Assembly: GCA_937899905.1 (NCBI GenBank)
Contig: CALCCF010000005.1
Coordinates: forward strand, 1-39,476
Length of the DNA: 39,476 nucleotides
DNA from: an uncultured Phycisphaeraceae bacterium
GTDB lineage: Bacteria; Planctomycetota; Phycisphaerae; Phycisphaerales; UBA1924
Direction of reading: 5' to 3'
The position numbers were made by a program, and so were the translations under genes. Under the pieces are notes generated by a model. The model was not told where the DNA came from. It worked only from the letters and a program-made list of their open reading frames with translations, and searched no databases. This document shows positions 22,723 through 37,781 of the stretch, in pieces (position 1 is the first letter of the stretch; every line of letters begins with the position of its first letter).

Positions 22723-23820
22723 GTGCTCCGCTTTCCCTCGGAACTCATCGTCCGCGTCCGCCCCACGTACGAAAACCGTCGCGTTGTCGTCACGGGTGGG
22801 GCGGGGTTCATCGGCAGCCACCTCGTCGACGCCCTGGTCTCGCTTGGGGCCCATGTGAGCGTGCTGGACGATCTGTCGAACTCTTCGGCCGCCTACGTCG
22901 CCGAGCTGCTGGAGCTCGAGCCCGATCGCGTCTCATTTGTGCACGGCTCGATCCTCGACCGTGATGCGCTCACCGACGCGTTCGCGACGCCGCGGAGGTC
23001 CAACACCCAAGCAGACTCCGATCGCGGGCCTGTGGTCTTCCATATGGCGGCCGTGGGCTCGGTGCCGCTGTCGATCGAGCAGCCCGGCCGAGCGTGGGAC
23101 GTGAACGCGACGGGCACGCTCCGCGTCCTCGAAGCGCTCCGCGCCGCTGGTGGTGGACGCATGGTGCACTCCAGCTCCAGCTCGATCTACGGCGACCGCG
23201 GCGAAGACTCGTCCCAGCCGTGCGAGGAGTCGATGCCGCCCTGCCCGCTCTCGCCGTACGCAGCCAGCAAGCTCTCGGGCGAGTACCTGCTCTCGACATG
23301 GGCCCGGTGCTACGGCATCGAGAGCATCGCGCTGCGGTACTTCAACGTGTTCGGCCCGCGTCAACGCGCCGACAGTGCATACGCCGCGGTCATCCCCGCG
23401 TTCGCGTCGCGCATGCTGCGGGGTGAACGGCCGACGATCTTCGGCGACGGCGAGCAGACGCGTGACTTCACGTTCGTCGCCAATGTGGTGCTGGCCAACC
23501 TGATGGCCGGATCGGCGAGCACCTTGCCCGACGGCGCGATCGCCAACGTTGGCCTCGGCAGCGCGACGAGCCTGAACCAACTGGCCGGCATGATGGCCGA
23601 GGCGGCCGCCAAGGACAGCCCGGGCGTGATAGCCGAAGACCTCAAGCCCCGGCATGAGCCCGCGCGGCAGGGCGAGGTACGGCACTCGCTGGCGAGCATC
23701 GAGCGGGCCCGCACCATCTTCGGCTACGACCCCTTCGCGACGCTGAGCGAAGGCCTGGCCGAGACCATCCAGTGGCATCGCGCACAACTCGAGGCCGGCG
23801 CTTCGAGCGGCGGCGCATAG
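22723..23820 (+). CDS. NAD-dependent nucleotide-sugar epimerase/dehydratase (extended SDR)
   Basis: 365 residues from the GTG at 22723 (AGGA about 7 bases upstream). The NAD-binding motif is TGGAGFIGSHL (24-34). The catalytic triad is Ser near 151-154 (SSSSIYGD), Tyr179 and Lys183 in SPYAASKLSGE. RYFNVFGPRQ and FGDGEQTRDFTFVANVV are substrate-binding landmarks of UDP-sugar 4-epimerases such as GalE and the UDP-GlcNAc 4-epimerases. The exact sugar cannot be read from the sequence. It probably supplies sugars for surface polysaccharide or glycoprotein. It is transcribed divergently from murC across 162 bases and is followed by a 66-residue gene with its own ribosome site. Confidence 0.9.
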   Translation: MLRFPSELIVRVRPTYENRRVVVTGGAGFIGSHLVDALVSLGAHVSVLDDLSNSSAAYVAELLELEPDRVSFVHGSILDRDALTDAFATPRRSNTQADSDRGPVVFHMAAVGSVPLSIEQPGRAWDVNATGTLRVLEALRAAGGGRMVHSSSSSIYGDRGEDSSQPCEESMPPCPLSPYAASKLSGEYLLSTWARCYGIESIALRYFNVFGPRQRADSAYAAVIPAFASRMLRGERPTIFGDGEQTRDFTFVANVVLANLMAGSASTLPDGAIANVGLGSATSLNQLAGMMAEAAAKDSPGVIAEDLKPRHEPARQGEVRHSLASIERARTIFGYDPFATLSEGLAETIQWHRAQLEAGASSGGA

Positions 23821-23835
23821 CGGGAGGACCGAGAC

Positions 23836-24036
23836 GTGGGACTCTGGCGCGACCTGCCCCTGGCGCTGTACGAACTGCCGAGGATGGCGATCCTCGCGAG
23901 GTTTCGCATACGCGGGCCGTACTACACCTGGCGATGGCACACCGCGTTTGGCCGGGGCACGCCGCCGCGCGGCGAGCTTGTGCGCGGGCTGATCGAGTAC
24001 GCCGCCTGGGCCCACCGCATCCGGAAGGGGCGCTGA
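23836..24036 (+). CDS. Small basic protein of unknown function
   Basis: 66 residues from the GTG at 23836, with GGGAGG ten or so bases upstream, 15 bases after the epimerase stop and 4 bases before the next gene. The protein is Arg-rich and aromatic (GPYYTWRWHTAFGRG) with no clear signal or membrane helix. Tight packing and the ribosome site make it likely to be expressed. I do not recognise a family. The spacing on both sides suggests co-transcription with the epimerase and the DNA glycosylase. Confidence 0.6.
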   Translation: MGLWRDLPLALYELPRMAILARFRIRGPYYTWRWHTAFGRGTPPRGELVRGLIEYAAWAHRIRKGR

Positions 24037-24040
24037 ACTT

Positions 24041-24904
24041 GTGGCGCAGCACGACATGAGTCCCGATCGGGTTCGGCGCTTGGTCGCGCAGGATGCGCGC
24101 GCGTGGGGCCAGCTCGGTGTGGCTTGGGGCCTGCGCGGCGATGCCAGCCGAGTCCCGGCGGCATCCAGCGCTCCAGAAACTGTGCAGCCCGAGCCCGAGC
24201 CCCAGGCCCAGCCCGAGCCGATACCGCGCAACCCGATGAAGTTGACGCAGCCGCCGGCTGCGCAAATCGAGGCCAAGCCCATGCCAACACCAACGGGCAC
24301 GCCCGCCGAGGTCGCCCAGCACCAACTCGCCCAGATCCTCCAGGACTACACGGAAGCTGCGCCGCACTTGGTGACGGGCACGCCACACACCACCATCGTG
24401 TTCGGCGAGGGCGATCCGTGCGCGCGCATCATGTTCGTCGGCGAAGCGCCCGGTGCCGACGAGGATCGGCTCGGCCGCCCCTTCGTTGGGCGCGCCGGCC
24501 AGAAACTCGAGCAGATGATCATCGCGATGGGACTGCAGCGCGAGGACGTCTACATCGCCAACGTTCTGAAGGTGCGCCCGCCGAACAACGCCACGCCCAC
24601 CTTGGAAGAGGCGCAGGCCTGCGCGCCGTACCTCATGCGTCAGATCGAAGTGATCCAGCCCGAGGCCATCGTCGCCCTCGGCCTGCCCTCGGCCCGCCTG
24701 CTCACGCAGCAGACGCTCTCGATGCGCGACCTGCGGGGGCGGTGGTGGCCCATGGCGACGCCCAGTGGCCAGGAGTTCCAGGTCCTGCCCACCTACCACC
24801 CGGCTTATCTGCTTCGGAACTACACCCCCGAGACCCGCCGCAAGGTCTGGGAGGACCTCAAGTGCGTGCTCGAGCGGCTCCAGTTGCCCGTTCCGGACCG
24901 GTAA
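24041..24904 (+). CDS. Uracil-DNA glycosylase, family 4-like, mostly lacking Fe-S ligands
   Basis: 287 residues from the GTG at 24041, with GGAAGGGG upstream. The first 90 residues are a Pro/Glu/Gln-rich low-complexity extension. The catalytic domain is clearly family 4: FGEGDPCARIMFVGEAPG, with motif 1 GEAPGADED (134-142), then GRPFVGRAGQKL, EDVYIANV and the motif 2 HPAYLLRN (253-260). These enzymes remove uracil from DNA after cytosine deamination. Family 4 normally holds a 4Fe-4S cluster with four cysteines. Here the N-terminal CxxC is missing (the region reads YTEAAPHLVTG), the KCRPP cysteine is Val178 (LKVRPP), and only Cys194 remains, so the cluster is probably lost. It is the last gene of a short operon. 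Confidence 0.85.
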   Translation: MAQHDMSPDRVRRLVAQDARAWGQLGVAWGLRGDASRVPAASSAPETVQPEPEPQAQPEPIPRNPMKLTQPPAAQIEAKPMPTPTGTPAEVAQHQLAQILQDYTEAAPHLVTGTPHTTIVFGEGDPCARIMFVGEAPGADEDRLGRPFVGRAGQKLEQMIIAMGLQREDVYIANVLKVRPPNNATPTLEEAQACAPYLMRQIEVIQPEAIVALGLPSARLLTQQTLSMRDLRGRWWPMATPSGQEFQVLPTYHPAYLLRNYTPETRRKVWEDLKCVLERLQLPVPDR

Positions 24905-25118: not shown

Positions 25119-25586
25119 TCAGCCGCCTGCGTCGACAGGAGGCTTGGCTTCCTCTTCGGCCGGAGTCTCGAATGCGAACGTGGTCTCGGCAGGGAGCACC
25201 TCGAGCTCCGTCACGATCCAGACCGGGGTGGTCGGGTCGGTCCACGTCACATCGAAGGTGAAACGCACCGGCTGCCCGATCTCGAGCGAGTCGACGTCGA
25301 TGTCCTCGGCAACGCGCGGGAAGGACATCTGGTGCGCGTTCATGCCGATCACCTCGCCCTGACCGTTGACGAAGTTCGGGATGCTCTCGTGGAAGATCTG
25401 GAACTCGCTGGCGGGGCTGTCGGGCGTCTTCTTCATCGCCACGCGGCCCTGTGTCGTGTAGCTCGCGTCGGGTTCGGCAGGCTGGGCTTCCTCGCTGCCA
25501 CAGCCGGTGAGGGGAAGCAACAGAGCGGTCGCAGCAATAACAAGGCCCGCTACGGAGAGCGGGCCCTTTTGGGAGTTCTTCATCAT
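25119..25586 (-). CDS. CusF-like copper-binding lipoprotein
   Basis: 155 residues (ATG at 25586, or the next codon). The signal peptide ends in the lipobox LTGC (Cys29). The mature domain resembles the CusF_Ec small beta-barrel: FQIFHESIPNF (His66) aligns with the CusF strand carrying its metal-ligand His, MNAHQMSF (Met82, His85, Met87) with the Met-rich strand, and IGQPVRFTFDV with the IKTGDKVAFNF strand. CusF-type proteins bind Cu(I) or Ag(I) in the periplasm, and planctomycetes carry many lipoprotein versions. No copper transporter lies nearby, so the partner is unknown. The assignment is by motif only. A 7-bp hairpin overlaps the first codons (25545-25564). Confidence 0.6.
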   Translation of the reverse strand: MMKNSQKGPLSVAGLVIAATALLLPLTGCGSEEAQPAEPDASYTTQGRVAMKKTPDSPASEFQIFHESIPNFVNGQGEVIGMNAHQMSFPRVAEDIDVDSLEIGQPVRFTFDVTWTDPTTPVWIVTELEVLPAETTFAFETPAEEEAKPPVDAGG

Positions 25587-26083: not shown

Positions 26084-27457
26084 ATGAGCGAACCCGCCGC
26101 CCCAACGCCGCCGGCCTTTGACCCCGACGCCCCGCACCAGCAGAAGCCCAAGCTCCGCCAGATCAAGGGCTTCCCGGCCCAGGTGAAGGGCCAGCAGGCC
26201 ATGGGCGTGGCCGACGCCAGGCAGATCAGCCGCAAGGTGGTCTTCACCTCGCCGGCGGCCCAGCAGATACTCCCGCTGATGGACGGCACGCGGTCGCTGG
26301 ACGACATTGTTGAGCAGGTCGGCCAGGGGCTGGAGCGCCGCAGCGTGGAACTGTTGGTGGCTCAGCTTGATGACGCCGCCCTGCTGCACGGCCCGAACTT
26401 CGACGAGGTCTGGAATGAGTTCACGCAGACCTTTGACTCCACCGACACGCTGCCGCCGTCCAATACGGCCGATTATGCCGAGGCCTTGGTCAAGAAGGCA
26501 TACGGCGAGGGCAACGAGCCAACCGAGGCCCAACTTGCCGAGGAGTCTCCCCAGGCCCTCCGCGAGCACCTCGACCAGATGATCGATGCCGCCCTGAAGG
26601 ACGACGAGAACCCCAGCTTCGACGCCTTGCCGGCGGGCATCGTCGTGCCGGCGATCGACTACGCCCGCGGTGGGCTGGTCTTTGCCAAGGCGTACGGACG
26701 CATGCGCGTCGTCGATCGGCCCGACCGGGTGATTATTCTCGGACCTAATCACTACGGCCGTTCATCCGGAGTCGCGGGCTGCGACAAGGGCTTCCAGAGC
26801 CCATTGGGCGAGTGCGCGGTCGATGCCCAGTTGGTCGAGAAGCTTCGTAACTCTCTGGGCGACAAGCTCTTCGAGCATCGCTACGACCACGAGCGCGAGC
26901 ACAGTGTTGAGCTGCAGCTCCCGTGGATCCAGCACGTCTTCGGCATGGATGACGATGGCAACTACCCCAAGATGTTCGCGGCCCTGGTCCATGACGCCGC
27001 GGCCAACAACGGCGAGAGCTACGACGGTAACGGCGTGGCCATCCAACCGTTCGTCGATGCCGTCAAGCAGGCCCTGGCCGAGCTCGGCGGCACGACGCTG
27101 CTGATCGTGAGCTTCGACCTCAGCCATGTTGGGCCGATGTTTGGAGATCAGGTCCAGCTGATGGGCGATGCTCCCGAAGCCCAGGAGGCCCGCAACAAGG
27201 TCGTGCGCCACGATCGCGACATGCTGGGCTTGCTCGCCCAGGGCAAGCCCGAAGAGATGGTCGCCGCGATGGCCTGGCAGCAGAACCCGACGCGCTGGTC
27301 CTCGACCGGGCCGATCGTGGCGGCGATGGGCATCGCCGATCCGTGCGCCACGCGGACGCTGCACTACCAGGGCGCGATCGACCAGAACGGCCACATGCTG
27401 GTGTCGATGATCGCTGGCGTGATCGAGGCCGGTGAGCCGGCCGAGCAGGCCGGATAG
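26084..27457 (+). CDS. MEMO-family (AmmeMemoRadiSam B) protein with PqqD-like N-terminus
   Basis: 457 residues from the ATG at 26084. Residues about 25-105 look like a PqqD-type winged helix (FTSPAAQQILPLMDGTRSLDDIV...). From about 183 there is a MEMO domain: VVPAIDYARGG, ILGPNHYG (His223), EREHSVELQLPWIQ, VSFDLSHVG (His348) and STGPIVAAMG. In human MEMO1 the metal ligands are H49, H81, H192 and C244. Here the H49 position is Ala190 (the subfamily consensus is PHIDYARGG) and the C244 position is Ser406. No AMMECR1 or radical-SAM gene is nearby. Function in bacteria is not established; the altered ligands suggest changed chemistry or a binding-only role. Confidence 0.8.
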   Translation: MSEPAAPTPPAFDPDAPHQQKPKLRQIKGFPAQVKGQQAMGVADARQISRKVVFTSPAAQQILPLMDGTRSLDDIVEQVGQGLERRSVELLVAQLDDAALLHGPNFDEVWNEFTQTFDSTDTLPPSNTADYAEALVKKAYGEGNEPTEAQLAEESPQALREHLDQMIDAALKDDENPSFDALPAGIVVPAIDYARGGLVFAKAYGRMRVVDRPDRVIILGPNHYGRSSGVAGCDKGFQSPLGECAVDAQLVEKLRNSLGDKLFEHRYDHEREHSVELQLPWIQHVFGMDDDGNYPKMFAALVHDAAANNGESYDGNGVAIQPFVDAVKQALAELGGTTLLIVSFDLSHVGPMFGDQVQLMGDAPEAQEARNKVVRHDRDMLGLLAQGKPEEMVAAMAWQQNPTRWSSTGPIVAAMGIADPCATRTLHYQGAIDQNGHMLVSMIAGVIEAGEPAEQAG

Positions 27458-31232: not shown

Positions 31233-33356
31233 ATGAAACTCAAGGGTGTTGGCTTCTTTGAAGCCCATATCGAGAAGCTGCTGCTCGGACTGATGGTCGC
31301 CGTCGCGGCCGGTGTCGTCGTGCTGCAGTTCGCCGGAAGCCCCAACGCCGTAAACGTGGGGAACCAGACCCTGCCGCCCGAGCGGGCCTTCGACCCGGTC
31401 GAGCAACGTGCGCGTGACATCAGAGGCCGCATGACGGCGGTCGATGTTGACGTTCCCGTCATCGACGGACGCAACGAGGCGCTGGCCGGTCTCGAGGATC
31501 GGGTCACCGAACGTGTCTCCGTCCGGCCGAGCGTGATGGCGTTTGGCAAGCCGGCCGAAATCGACGACGCGTTGCTCGAGGGCCAAGCCGACGACGTCGA
31601 GTACGCGATGATCGATCCGCCCGCGCCGGGCGCGGCTGTGGCGGCCAGTTACGCCGCCACGATCGATCCGGCCTTGCTCATCGACAACGAGGATCTGGCG
31701 GCCATCGTCGGTCCGTCGCAGCCGTTCGACATCGTGACGGTGACGATCGAGACAACCTACGACGGTACCGCGCTCGAAGAGGCCTTCCGCACAGCCGGCG
31801 AGGGCGAGCTGCGCTCGTTGCCCTTCAACTGGGTGAACGGCGTGGAAGCGCTCGGCCTGCAGCTCGAGCGTCAGGAGCAACTCTCCGATGGGTCGTGGGG
31901 TAACACGACCATCATCGAGGGCCTGCCGGGCACGCCCAGCCTCACACAGGTGCTGCGTCAGGATGCCGCGGACGGCGTGCTCGGAAGAGACCAGCTCGCG
32001 TCGGATGCCCGCTTGGCATTCGAGGAGGCGCCGGACTTCCGCCGACCGCTGCCGGTACGAACGATCGCGGGCCCAGAGTGGCAGCCGCCGACCGTCATGA
32101 AGGCAGAGCTCGCCTCGTTCGGCGGGGTGGACGGCCAGGGCCAGGCCCAGCGGCTGTTCAACCAGCGCAGCAGCCAGCTCGCGCTGCGAGCAAACGTCGA
32201 GCGTCGTGGCAACGAGTCCCGCGGCGATCAGGGCGATCGCGGTGGCCGCGGCCGACCGGAACGCCCCGGCCGTGGTGGGCGCGACGACGATGACGACGAA
32301 CCACTGGATCGCCGCGCACAGGCCATCGAGCGCCAGCTGGCCGAGATCGATCGCCAGCTCGAGCGCATCGATGCCCAGATGATCGAACTGGGCTATGACC
32401 CCGAAACCGGATTGCCCGTCGAGACCAGCGGCTTCACGGACGACACGGTTGACGCTCGACTGCTCGAAGAAACCGAGGCGCGGCTGTGGGCCCACGACCT
32501 GACGGCCAAGCCCGGTGCGACCTACCGCTACCGGACTCGCCTGGCCATCAACAACCCGATGTTCGGCCGCGAGGCCGTGCTCATCGAAGCGCAGCGACCG
32601 ATGGCGGCCGATCCCGTGCTGCTCAGCGAGCCCTCCGCATGGAGCGAGCCGCTGGTTGTGGCTCCGACGACCGCGTTCTTCCTCGCCAGCGCGAGCGACG
32701 GGCGCGGAGGGGCGCTCGGCCCGAGCGAACCGACGGCCAGCGTCGAGGTGTTCACCTTCTACTACGGCTACTACCGTCGAGCGACGCTCACGCTTCGGCC
32801 CGGCGACATCGTGGTGGCCGACGCCGACCTGCCCGATGACCTGCGTTTGCCCGTACTGGCCGACGCCAGCGAGACAGACGCGTCACCCGGTGCCGGCGCC
32901 CGTCGCGGCGATCGGCCTCGTGAACGGGATGGCGTAGGACGGCCCGGTGTTGCGCCCGCGGGCGTCGTGCCGCTCGGGGGTCGCCGCGAGGCCGCCGCTG
33001 AGTCCGAGGAAGAAGGCGAGGGCGAGCTCGTGCCCGATGAGGTGCCCGCCGTGGTCGACGTCTACCTCGTCGATGTGACCTTCGAGCCCACGCAGGCCGA
33101 AGGCCCGGCCGACCGGTCGACGCAAGCCGTGGCGTACTTCAGCCAGCTCGGTGGTGCCGGCCTTGTGCGCCGCATCGCGACGGTCGATCGCCAGGGCGAG
33201 CTGTACCAGATGCTCGCCCGTTCGGCCGAGCAGGGCCGCAGCCAAGGGCAGGCCAGGGAGTCACTCGAGGGGCCTCGGGTTCGCGAACCACGCGAGCCCC
33301 GTCCGACGAGCGGTGGCGTCTCCCCTGGGAAGGCTGCCCCCGGCGGCGGCGGCTGA
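31233..33356 (+). CDS. Large single-pass membrane protein in the pilus operon, with RG-rich linker
   Basis: 707 residues from the ATG at 31233 (AAAGGAAG upstream; another ATG lies 6 bases earlier). One membrane helix near the N-terminus (about 13-33; LLLGLMVAVAAGVVVLQ) leaves nearly everything in the periplasm. Two folded-looking regions flank a linker at about 324-356 that is rich in Arg, Gly and Asp and ends in DDDDDE, followed by a heptad-like segment (about 358-390; IERQLAEIDRQLERID). The C-terminus is again low-complexity. I do not recognise a family. Position in the operon suggests a pilus platform or PilP-like role, by inference only. An intrinsic terminator follows at 33405. Confidence 0.65.
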   Translation: MKLKGVGFFEAHIEKLLLGLMVAVAAGVVVLQFAGSPNAVNVGNQTLPPERAFDPVEQRARDIRGRMTAVDVDVPVIDGRNEALAGLEDRVTERVSVRPSVMAFGKPAEIDDALLEGQADDVEYAMIDPPAPGAAVAASYAATIDPALLIDNEDLAAIVGPSQPFDIVTVTIETTYDGTALEEAFRTAGEGELRSLPFNWVNGVEALGLQLERQEQLSDGSWGNTTIIEGLPGTPSLTQVLRQDAADGVLGRDQLASDARLAFEEAPDFRRPLPVRTIAGPEWQPPTVMKAELASFGGVDGQGQAQRLFNQRSSQLALRANVERRGNESRGDQGDRGGRGRPERPGRGGRDDDDDEPLDRRAQAIERQLAEIDRQLERIDAQMIELGYDPETGLPVETSGFTDDTVDARLLEETEARLWAHDLTAKPGATYRYRTRLAINNPMFGREAVLIEAQRPMAADPVLLSEPSAWSEPLVVAPTTAFFLASASDGRGGALGPSEPTASVEVFTFYYGYYRRATLTLRPGDIVVADADLPDDLRLPVLADASETDASPGAGARRGDRPRERDGVGRPGVAPAGVVPLGGRREAAAESEEEGEGELVPDEVPAVVDVYLVDVTFEPTQAEGPADRSTQAVAYFSQLGGAGLVRRIATVDRQGELYQMLARSAEQGRSQGQARESLEGPRVREPREPRPTSGGVSPGKAAPGGGG

Positions 33357-33404
33357 GGCATGCCGGCCGTTCTTGTGGCCCTTGAAACACCTTGACGACA
33401 CCCG

Positions 33405-33432
33405 ACCGGCTGCAATTTGTGGCCGGTTTTTT
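33405..33432 (+). terminator. Intrinsic terminator of the pilus operon
   Basis: ACCGGC (33405-33410) pairs with GCCGGT (33422-33427), followed by six Ts (33427-33432). It lies about 50 bases after the last pilus gene and 12 bases before the rRNA promoter, so it insulates the two units. Confidence 0.8.
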
Positions 33433-33443
33433 GATGCCCTAGA

Positions 33444-33471
33444 TTGACGACTGAGAGGTACTGGGTATCAT
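33444..33471 (+). promoter_or_regulatory. Promoter of the 23S-5S rRNA unit
   Basis: TTGACG (33444-33449) and TATCAT (33466-33471) are separated by 16 bases, close to the sigma-70 consensus, with a GC-rich discriminator after the -10. It is directly downstream of the pilus terminator and about 340 bases upstream of mature 23S. No 16S gene lies between, so this promoter serves 23S-5S alone. Confidence 0.7.
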
Positions 33472-33804
33472 CTCCTCGCTCCGCTCGGTCCGCCGGGCAA
33501 CAAGGAGCGACCCCTGGTGGCGGGGGGCGGATGCCCTTCCAAAACCGAGGCTCTCTGACAACCGGCACGGATCAAACGTCGTCCCGCACGGGCGGAAACG
33601 GCTCGCAGGCAAGCCGCAAGGCTTGGCTTCGAGAACGTGCTGTTTAGTGTGGGGCTGGCGGGTAGCAACATTAAGAATCGAGCGAGCGCCGCCGGGCGCA
33701 TGGACGCAATGTCCAGACCCCGGCCTGTGAGTGTGAAGCCTTCGGGTGGATCGCTTGCAGTAGAAGGTGCGCTTGAGCCAATCTGGAACCGTTCGCGGCG
33801 ACAG
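33472..33804 (+). other. rRNA leader region
   Basis: About 330 bases between the promoter and the 23S processing stem. It contains no protein gene, 16S rRNA or tRNA that I can see. A CAAGCC-GCAA-GGCTTG hairpin and a boxA-like TGCTGTTTAG are annotated separately. The rest shows several GC-rich inverted pairs, as expected of a structured rRNA leader. Confidence 0.6.
33610..33647 (+). promoter_or_regulatory. boxB-boxA-type antitermination element
   Basis: CAAGCC (33610-33615), a GCAA tetraloop and GGCTTG (33620-33625) form a perfect 6-bp hairpin in the place of boxB. Twelve bases later, TGCTGTTTAG (33638-33647) matches the boxA consensus TGCTCTTTA at all but one position. The order boxB then boxA is that of rRNA leaders, where the Nus factors assemble to prevent termination within the long non-coding RNA. 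Confidence 0.6.
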
Positions 33805-33812
33805 GTTGGTGT

Positions 33813-36542
<2,730 letters not shown>

Positions 36543-36550
36543 GCACCAAC

Positions 36551-36763
36551 CCATTGCCGCGATCTTCGGATCGTGGGCAAGCACTCGCTCGATTCGTACG
36601 AGTGCACAGAAGAGAAGATTCGTTATTCAGCAGAATTACGGTCTTCCGTCAACCATCAAGACCCTGGTCTTGTTGGGCCAGTAGACGTTTGTTCCGGCCG
36701 GATCTTGTCTGGGCATTGCCCAGGCGAGACCTAGTGCCGGATGGCTGAAAAGCTATCCGTGCA
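36551..36763 (+). other. 23S-5S spacer
   Basis: About 210 bases with no tRNA gene visible. It ends in a strong hairpin, GGATGGCT-GAAA-AGCTATCC (36739-36758), with one G-U pair and a GNRA loop, a few bases before 5S and probably part of 5S processing. A second small hairpin, CTGGGC-ATT-GCCCAG, lies just upstream of it. Confidence 0.6.
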
Positions 36764-36872
36764 TTTTCGGCGACCATAGGTCAGGGGAGACACCTGTTCC
36801 CATCCCGAACACAGCAGTTAAGCCCTGGCCGCCGATGATACTGCCCTGCGGGAAAGTAGGTCATCGCCGTAC
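36764..36872 (+). rRNA. 5S ribosomal RNA
   Basis: About 109 bases. CGGCGA at the 5' end pairs with TCGCCG at the 3' end (helix I), and the conserved loop segment CCCATCCCGAACACAGCAGT is present, with GATGATACTGCC and GGAAAGTAGG in the second half. The position after 23S and the immediate downstream terminator support it. Exact ends are uncertain by a few bases. Confidence 0.95.
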
Positions 36873-36875
36873 TTG

Positions 36876-36908
36876 AGCCCCCAACGGTCAAACGTTGGGG
36901 GCTCTTTT
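36876..36908 (+). terminator. Intrinsic terminator of the rRNA unit
   Basis: AGCCCCCAACG (36876-36886) pairs perfectly with CGTTGGGGGCT (36893-36903) over 11 bp, with a 6-base loop, followed by CTTTT. It begins 4 bases after 5S. Confidence 0.95.
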
Positions 36909-36926
36909 CATTGGCTCGCTGCGTGT

Positions 36927-37781
36927 ATGCGCATCTCCGAACCACGCCAGTCACCTGCACCGGGCCGCCTAGATTTCTTCGTGCCGCACCTCGCAATAGA
37001 GAGCCGAGTGACTCAGCCAGACGTGCTGGATTGGCCCGATCTCGGTGGCCTCGACGACGCCGCCAGGCTTCGGGCGCGAGTCGCGCGAGTGCCGCACTGG
37101 TTCCATTCCTTCGAGCTGCCAGGCGGCGTCTGGACCGGTGGGCGGTATCGGCCCGCCGAGAAGCTCCACCGCCTCCACCTGCCCCATCGCATGGACGGCC
37201 TGAACGTCCTCGATGTCGGCGCCTGGGATGGCTTCTACAGCTTTGAGGCCGAACGGCGGGGGGCGGAACGCGTTATCTCGGCCGACCTCTGGAACCCCGA
37301 ACTCTCGGCGACCAGCGAGGGGTACGCGGTTGCGCACTCGGCGATGCAATCCTCGGCCACCCCGGTACGTGCCTCGGTACACGATCTCGATCCGTCGATT
37401 CACGGCGAGCACGACCTCGTGCTCTTCCTTGGCGTGCTCTACCACCTGCCGAACCCCTTCGAGGCTCTAGTTGCGCTCCGGCGCGTCACACGCAAGACCC
37501 TCATCTTGGAAACCGAGAGCGACCTCGCGTACACGCGCAGGCCCGCGCTCGCGTTCTACACCGGTTCGGAGCTCGGCAAGGATCCAACAAACTGGTTCGG
37601 CCCTAATGCGAAGGCAGTCGTGGCGATGTGCCAGGCCGCGGGGTTCGGGGACGTCCGCGTGGTCTGGAAGATGGGTTTGCCGATGCGGCTGGCTCGTGCG
37701 GCGAAGCGCGCCCGCGTCTACGGCGAGTCTCCCGTTTCCGGCCACGCCCGCGGCCGCGTGGTGGTCCATGCCCACGTCTGA
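36927..37781 (+). CDS. Class I SAM methyltransferase, CmoB-like (DUF1698 type)
   Basis: 284 residues from the ATG at 36927. An earlier in-frame start at 36873 lies in the rRNA terminator and is rejected; a GTG at 37008 is also possible. Motif I is LDVGAWDGFYSFE (near residue 95), then ERVISADLW, and LVLFLGVLYHLPNPFEAL, which closely matches the CmoB signature containing MGVLYH. The N-terminal VPHWFHSFELPGGVWTGG also fits this family. CmoB makes the carboxymethoxy-uridine modification at the tRNA wobble position from carboxy-SAM, but relatives modify other substrates, and no cmoA is visible here. The end overlaps thiE by 14 bases. Confidence 0.8.
   Translation: MRISEPRQSPAPGRLDFFVPHLAIESRVTQPDVLDWPDLGGLDDAARLRARVARVPHWFHSFELPGGVWTGGRYRPAEKLHRLHLPHRMDGLNVLDVGAWDGFYSFEAERRGAERVISADLWNPELSATSEGYAVAHSAMQSSATPVRASVHDLDPSIHGEHDLVLFLGVLYHLPNPFEALVALRRVTRKTLILETESDLAYTRRPALAFYTGSELGKDPTNWFGPNAKAVVAMCQAAGFGDVRVVWKMGLPMRLARAAKRARVYGESPVSGHARGRVVVHAHV

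Follow-up and report, generated by a model that had tools for sequence, protein, structure and literature searches.

We believe that the uracil-DNA glycosylase (UDG) gene described here likely encodes an active, probably metal-free enzyme, one that descends from the [4Fe-4S] family-4 glycosylases and lost its cluster in place, as judged by sequence comparison and a structural model. The gene (287 codons) lies at 24,041-24,904 on the forward strand of the window, by which we mean the whole 39,476-nucleotide stretch that was analysed. It begins with GTG, and an in-frame ATG at 24,056 (Met6) is a plausible alternative start.

Class assignment and the cluster ligand positions

The protein scores 188.9 bits with TIGR00758, the family-4 UDG profile (cut-off 125.3), and 131.6 bits with the Pfam UDG profile PF03167; it falls below the cut-offs of the archaeal equivalog NF040953 (178.5 bits, cut-off 250) and of the UdgX model TIGR03914 (114.8 bits, cut-off 189.95). 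Motif A, GEAPGADED, occupies residues 134-142 (24,440-24,466, forward strand), and motif B, HPAYLLR, residues 253-259 (24,797-24,817, forward strand); both are read from the translation and conserved in the alignment, and the preliminary description of a family-4-like enzyme with both catalytic motifs intact stands. A PF03167 search of the host genome (113 contigs, 95.07% complete) returned this protein as its single match and no second UDG. As the only member of the superfamily detected there, it probably does most of the cell's uracil excision.

The cluster is another matter. We aligned UDGs from 200 genomes, one per genome, and took as ligand columns the four that are cysteine, by definition, in all 45 of the four-cysteine rows. 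In the window protein these columns hold Ala107, Leu110, Val178 and Cys194. Thus the former CxxC reads Ala107, Pro108, His109, Leu110 (24,359-24,370, forward strand), Val178 (24,572-24,574) replaces the third ligand, the cysteine of KCRPP, and Cys194 (24,620-24,622) occupies the fourth position, with Cys127 and Cys275 outside the ligand columns. Three of the four cluster cysteines are gone, as first noted from the sequence. The accompanying view of Cys194 as the remaining ligand fares less well: of the four other sampled members of the genus, three have Ser in this column and one has Ala, so the cysteine may be a reversal rather than a relic. The loop changes further on as well: after KxRPPxN, 44 of the 45 four-cysteine rows have Arg where the window protein has Ala184, and Ala also stands there in 73 of the 92 rows of the window's family that lack CxxC, so DNA binding may differ. 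The counterpart of this Arg touches DNA in the A. fulgidus enzyme.

An AlphaFold2 model of the protein has a mean pLDDT of 86.8; taken in blocks of ten residues, the stretch 81-287 scores 88-98. Its input included cluster-bearing relatives, which favours the ancestral fold. The closest solved structures by sequence are those from T. maritima (1l9g/1vk2; TM0511) and T. thermophilus (1ui0), and these family-4 (UdgA) enzymes share motifs A and B and the profile with the window protein, at 40-41% identity and Z scores of 28.6 (1vk2) and 27.3 (1ui0). Superposition on 1vk2 with VIA-align 2 covers 189 residues at 1.6 Å over model range 83-282, so that the surroundings of the old CxxC are included in the match. 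The structure prediction proposed in the preliminary description thus returns a family-4 fold. By profile, by its GE(A/G)PG and HPA..LR motifs and by predicted fold the protein resembles family 4, while the four cysteine ligands of the [4Fe-4S] cluster, which also belong to the family definition, are not all present; we accordingly class it as a putative cluster-free variant rather than an ordinary member.

Two other branches of the superfamily invite comparison. BdiUng of Bradyrhizobium diazoefficiens (5gn2) is also cluster-free with a family-4-like fold, and its motif A is GQDPA. The window protein shares the superfamily fold with it (Z 15.1, 2.6 Å, 179 residues), at 16% identity to 5gn2 and with GEAPG as motif A, which sets it outside the BdiUng group, itself placed in a separate class according to part of PMC8307549. 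UdgX likewise shares the fold (Z 23-25) and is characterised, in the portion of PMC10359453 that concerns it, by GEQPG, a KRRIH loop and a [4Fe-4S] cluster; the window protein has GEAPG and lacks the cluster ligands, and KRRIH is absent from its translation, all of which, with the TIGR03914 score, separates it from UdgX.

Distribution and inheritance of the loss

A second sample of 60 loci brought the alignment to 260 rows, 190 from the window's order and 70 from outside it; seven loci (L001, L156-L161) were left out as a duplicate, paralogues, fusion or filler. The order loci are partly the best TIGR00758 matches, the family loci are the best matches to the window protein, and the remaining rows were hand-picked across genera and families, and the counts that follow describe these chosen samples and not frequencies in nature. 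Among the 200 original rows, all four cysteines occur in 45, the first, second and fourth in 44, the fourth alone in 67, none in 36 and other patterns in 8. Within the order, 35 of the 190 rows have four cysteines, 44 have three (CxxC and the fourth) and 111 have two or fewer; outside it the corresponding numbers are 64 with four and one with three, and the last five of the 70 (four from family f9 and one from f34) have none. The CxxC is absent from all five sampled genomes of the window's genus, the four others of which lack the same ligands as the window protein, and from 92 of 104 in its family. Relatives sharing the loss are therefore plentiful; it is their absence that would have refuted the preliminary reading. 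One consequence is that, in most of the members sampled from this bacterial order, annotating an iron-sulphur cluster by family membership would be a mistake. A search of the open PMC literature found no account of cluster-free family-4 UDGs, which is weak evidence of novelty, directly relevant papers having been left uncovered by it. Seven of 120 genomes gave no good match, which could mean either that cells can do without the gene or that incomplete assemblies lack it.

On a careful tree of 64 rows, built under LG+G4 with the ligand columns blanked, presence of the CxxC changes seven times (7-8 over bootstraps), at least six of these changes being forced by well-supported branches; a single grouping of all rows lacking the motif is rejected (p-AU 3.0e-5), and a quick tree of 200 rows gives six changes. 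Such counts do not distinguish loss from gain, and we infer the direction from the dominance of four-cysteine rows outside the order. On this basis the CxxC appears to have been lost several times, with the losses located in families f5, f6, f2, f1, f9 and f34. The earlier suggestion of a cluster-free branch thus survives in part: family members do share the loss, with an intact predicted fold and purifying selection, but the losses are several and do not define one branch.

The course of the loss can also be read in part. In the f1-f4 clade (31 of the 64 rows, support 99/96), the third cysteine is missing from nearly all rows and the CxxC is kept in many, so the loss there was stepwise; in f5, no three-cysteine form was seen among the sampled rows. 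Three four-cysteine rows inside the f1-f4 clade (L112, L175 and L186) have cysteine codons one base from the serine codons of their neighbours, and may be regains.

The setting of the gene is consistent with change at one locus. Upstream, on the same strand, lie an NAD-dependent sugar epimerase (22,723-23,820; profile match and shared synteny) and, just before the UDG gene, a 66-residue open reading frame (23,836-24,036) with no Pfam or NCBIfam match. Of the 260 loci searched, 48 have a homologue of this frame next to the UDG gene, and every one of them belongs to the window's family. Downstream are a lipoprotein-like reading frame, judged by its N-terminus (25,119-25,586, reverse strand), a syntenic neighbour common to three-cysteine relatives, and a gene for a Memo-like protein, identified by profile matches (26,084-27,457, forward strand), which adjoins the UDG gene in 28 of 37 f2 loci. 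In the family (104 loci), the UDG has neighbours in common with the window gene in 73 of the 92 loci without CxxC and 6 of the 12 with it, numbers that are lower bounds because the loci are short. Since the neighbours are the same with and without the motif, the loss occurred at a single locus that was passed on in place.

Remodelling of the former cluster site

In the 92 family members without CxxC, the segment that once carried it has acquired a conserved motif of its own: Tyr103 in 90, Pro108 in 88, His109 in 84, Phe112 in 78 and Thr114 in 76. Judging from this conservation, the old cluster site has been rebuilt and not merely abandoned. The window protein has Tyr103, Pro108, His109 and Thr114, with Thr112 in place of Phe112. 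The idea that the fold is now stabilised another way is accordingly plausible for the family, with the reservation that the window protein itself deviates at residue 112. In its model, a helix spans residues 88-106 and a short one, residues 108-112, runs across the old CxxC; in the model of the three-cysteine protein L163 (mean pLDDT 94.3), the helix (residues 12-28) ends just before the first cysteine and no second helix follows. We envisage that ordinary packing would hold the former cluster segment (residues ~100-120 and 177-196): the helix passing the old CxxC is longer, the former ligand positions carry small or hydrophobic residues, and most family members add the aromatic residue and Pro-His motif. 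Uracil would still be flipped out of the DNA and its glycosidic bond cut by the usual residues of motifs A and B.

How the metal was lost is a more tentative matter. All 44 three-cysteine rows have His103, 43 have His109 and 37 have His116, where four-cysteine rows mostly have Glu, Lys and Arg. Within f1-f4, His103 occurs in 46 of 46 rows with CxxC and in 2 of 100 without, which is suggestive of a histidine that comes and goes with the motif; the three independent pairs on the tree give 2.8 changes the same way and none opposite (median p 0.25), which is not significant. His103 is found, too, in five four-cysteine rows, two of them outside f1-f4, and the one three-cysteine protein from outside the order (L224) has no histidine at this position. 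It is possible, if doubtful, that the metal passed through another site before it disappeared, and that the series ends, metal-free, in the window enzyme. In such a series, f1-f4 relatives would first have lost the KCRPP cysteine; those keeping CxxC and Cys194 would then have gained His103 four residues before the first cysteine (HxxxCxHC), which with His109 and often His116 could form a Cys3His set for zinc or a His-ligated Fe-S centre; and the metal would have been lost at least three times, His103 along with it (Tyr103 in the window protein).

Several compensations were considered and set aside. His109 is present in 43 of 44 three-cysteine rows against 4 of 45 four-cysteine rows, with two independent pairs that show no joint change; one inherited change would explain these counts, and we do not regard the pattern as compensation. 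A Cys127-Cys194 pair replacing the cluster finds no association (Fisher p 0.83, 103 rows), and genus members retain Cys127 without Cys194. The counts for positions 178 and 194 are striking, Cys194 accompanying Thr178 in 66 of 71 rows and Val178 in 1 of 22 (the window protein alone). Yet supported branches offer just four independent pairs, of which 2.5 change the same way and none the opposite way; coupled repacking is thus not significant and stands as an observation.

Might the enzyme instead keep a metal site, a rebuilt cluster or a zinc ion, on other ligands such as His109, His116, Cys127 and Cys194? The retention of His109 among family members without CxxC speaks for it, and in the 103 rows lacking both CxxC cysteines, with counts uncorrected for ancestry, Cys127 occurs in 37 of 82 rows with His109 against 1 of 21 without, and in 26 of 49 with His116 against 12 of 54. 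Nonetheless, we consider such a site unlikely, because the ligands are not conserved as a full set: Ser or Ala replaces Cys194 in four of five genus members, position 116 is His in 51 of the 92 family rows and otherwise mostly Phe, Trp or Tyr, and Cys127 is present in 39 of 92.

Slightly less probable still is that the protein is no longer a uracil glycosylase and has turned its fold to another base or to binding alone. Ala184 in place of the loop Arg and the rebuilt cluster region could be taken in this sense, and substrates differ among relatives elsewhere in the superfamily, according to part of PMC8307549. Against this, motifs A and B are those of family 4, the UdgX score is below cut-off, and the ten active-site residues are intact in all 111 rows without CxxC, as in 42 of 44 three-cysteine and 43 of 45 four-cysteine rows. 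Published mutants fit an active enzyme: in excerpts of PMC5295032, two archaeal family-4 enzymes with Cys-to-Ser substitutions are reported to lose only about 40% of their activity, and the cluster is said to aid stability, its loss in a family-5 enzyme having reduced thermostability. Finally, although the window stems from a 113-contig assembly, a decaying gene or an assembly error can be dismissed, because the same ligand loss recurs in the four other genus genomes, the active site is intact and dN/dS, computed over 182 codons, lies at 0.083-0.161 for every one of the 10 pairs that the five genus members form.

Other glycosylases, the purpose of the cluster and the N-terminal extension

An active, metal-free enzyme of this kind would have an analogue in clusterless MutY (Trasviña-Arenas et al. 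2016, as cited in parts of PMC11078426 and PMC5295032), likewise a DNA glycosylase without the ligands that its [4Fe-4S] relatives carry; the HhH fold of MutY is unrelated, so this is analogy and not kinship. In the window genome itself, MutY keeps C-x6-C-x2-C-x5-C. The Endonuclease III (Nth) of the same genome (C26:62348-63145; L209, L271) has C-x6-C-x5-C-x3-C, a spacing found in 22 of 30 Nth loci of the order (including L272-L300), with the standard C-x6-C-x2-C-x5-C in 3 and others in 5. With the MutY motif and four Nth cysteines retained, loss of Fe-S ligands is not genome-wide.

Opinion is divided on what the [4Fe-4S] cluster does for DNA glycosylases: it may be a structural brace, or a redox tool that searches for damage via DNA-mediated charge transport. 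A portion of PMC9266487 describes the redox model and counts a family-4 UDG among its examples. Here one orthologous enzyme occurs in related genomes with four, three or no ligands, its catalytic residues unchanged and, in the window genome, the MutY cluster motif kept. Such orthologues are matched natural pairs for asking what the cluster is for, in which stability, lesion search and metal content could be tested without engineered mutants.

The preliminary description also held that a 90-residue low-complexity extension had been added at the N-terminus. The extension is real, but its addition here is not supported, since four-cysteine relatives have similar peptides. It comprises a predicted helix at residues 8-28 (24,062-24,124, forward strand), of low pLDDT and with local similarity to relatives, and a Pro/Ala-rich low-complexity linker at residues 29-87 (24,125-24,301), without helix or strand in the model. 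Among the 200 rows, 61 match a strict pattern for the N-terminal peptide of relatives, where shuffled sequences would give about 0.24; the rates are alike in four-cysteine (14/45), three-cysteine (15/44) and C4-only rows (20/67). The window's own peptide is too diverged for the strict pattern, yet aligns to those of relatives. From this even distribution, the extension is an older trait, unlinked to the loss of the cluster.

Some further observations concern the window and its relatives. A tRNA search of the whole window found none and a 16S search of 33,300-37,500 gave no match; 23S and 5S rRNA genes lie at 33,813-36,544 and 36,766-36,872. Four cluster-free UDGs of family f9 (L217-L220) lack the KxRPP loop sequence as well, for example KLRAASFDDETKRLRDRPP. 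Two genus members also carry frames of 943 residues (L156, 3192-6020) and 877 residues (L157), the former a TIGR03915 match fused to a match to the UdgX model TIGR03914. A 797-residue frame (L160, 105-2495) has a UDG-like domain fused to a DNA polymerase I-like one and resembles PDB 9qhs, the entry for a phage family-A polymerase, which likewise matches the window protein.
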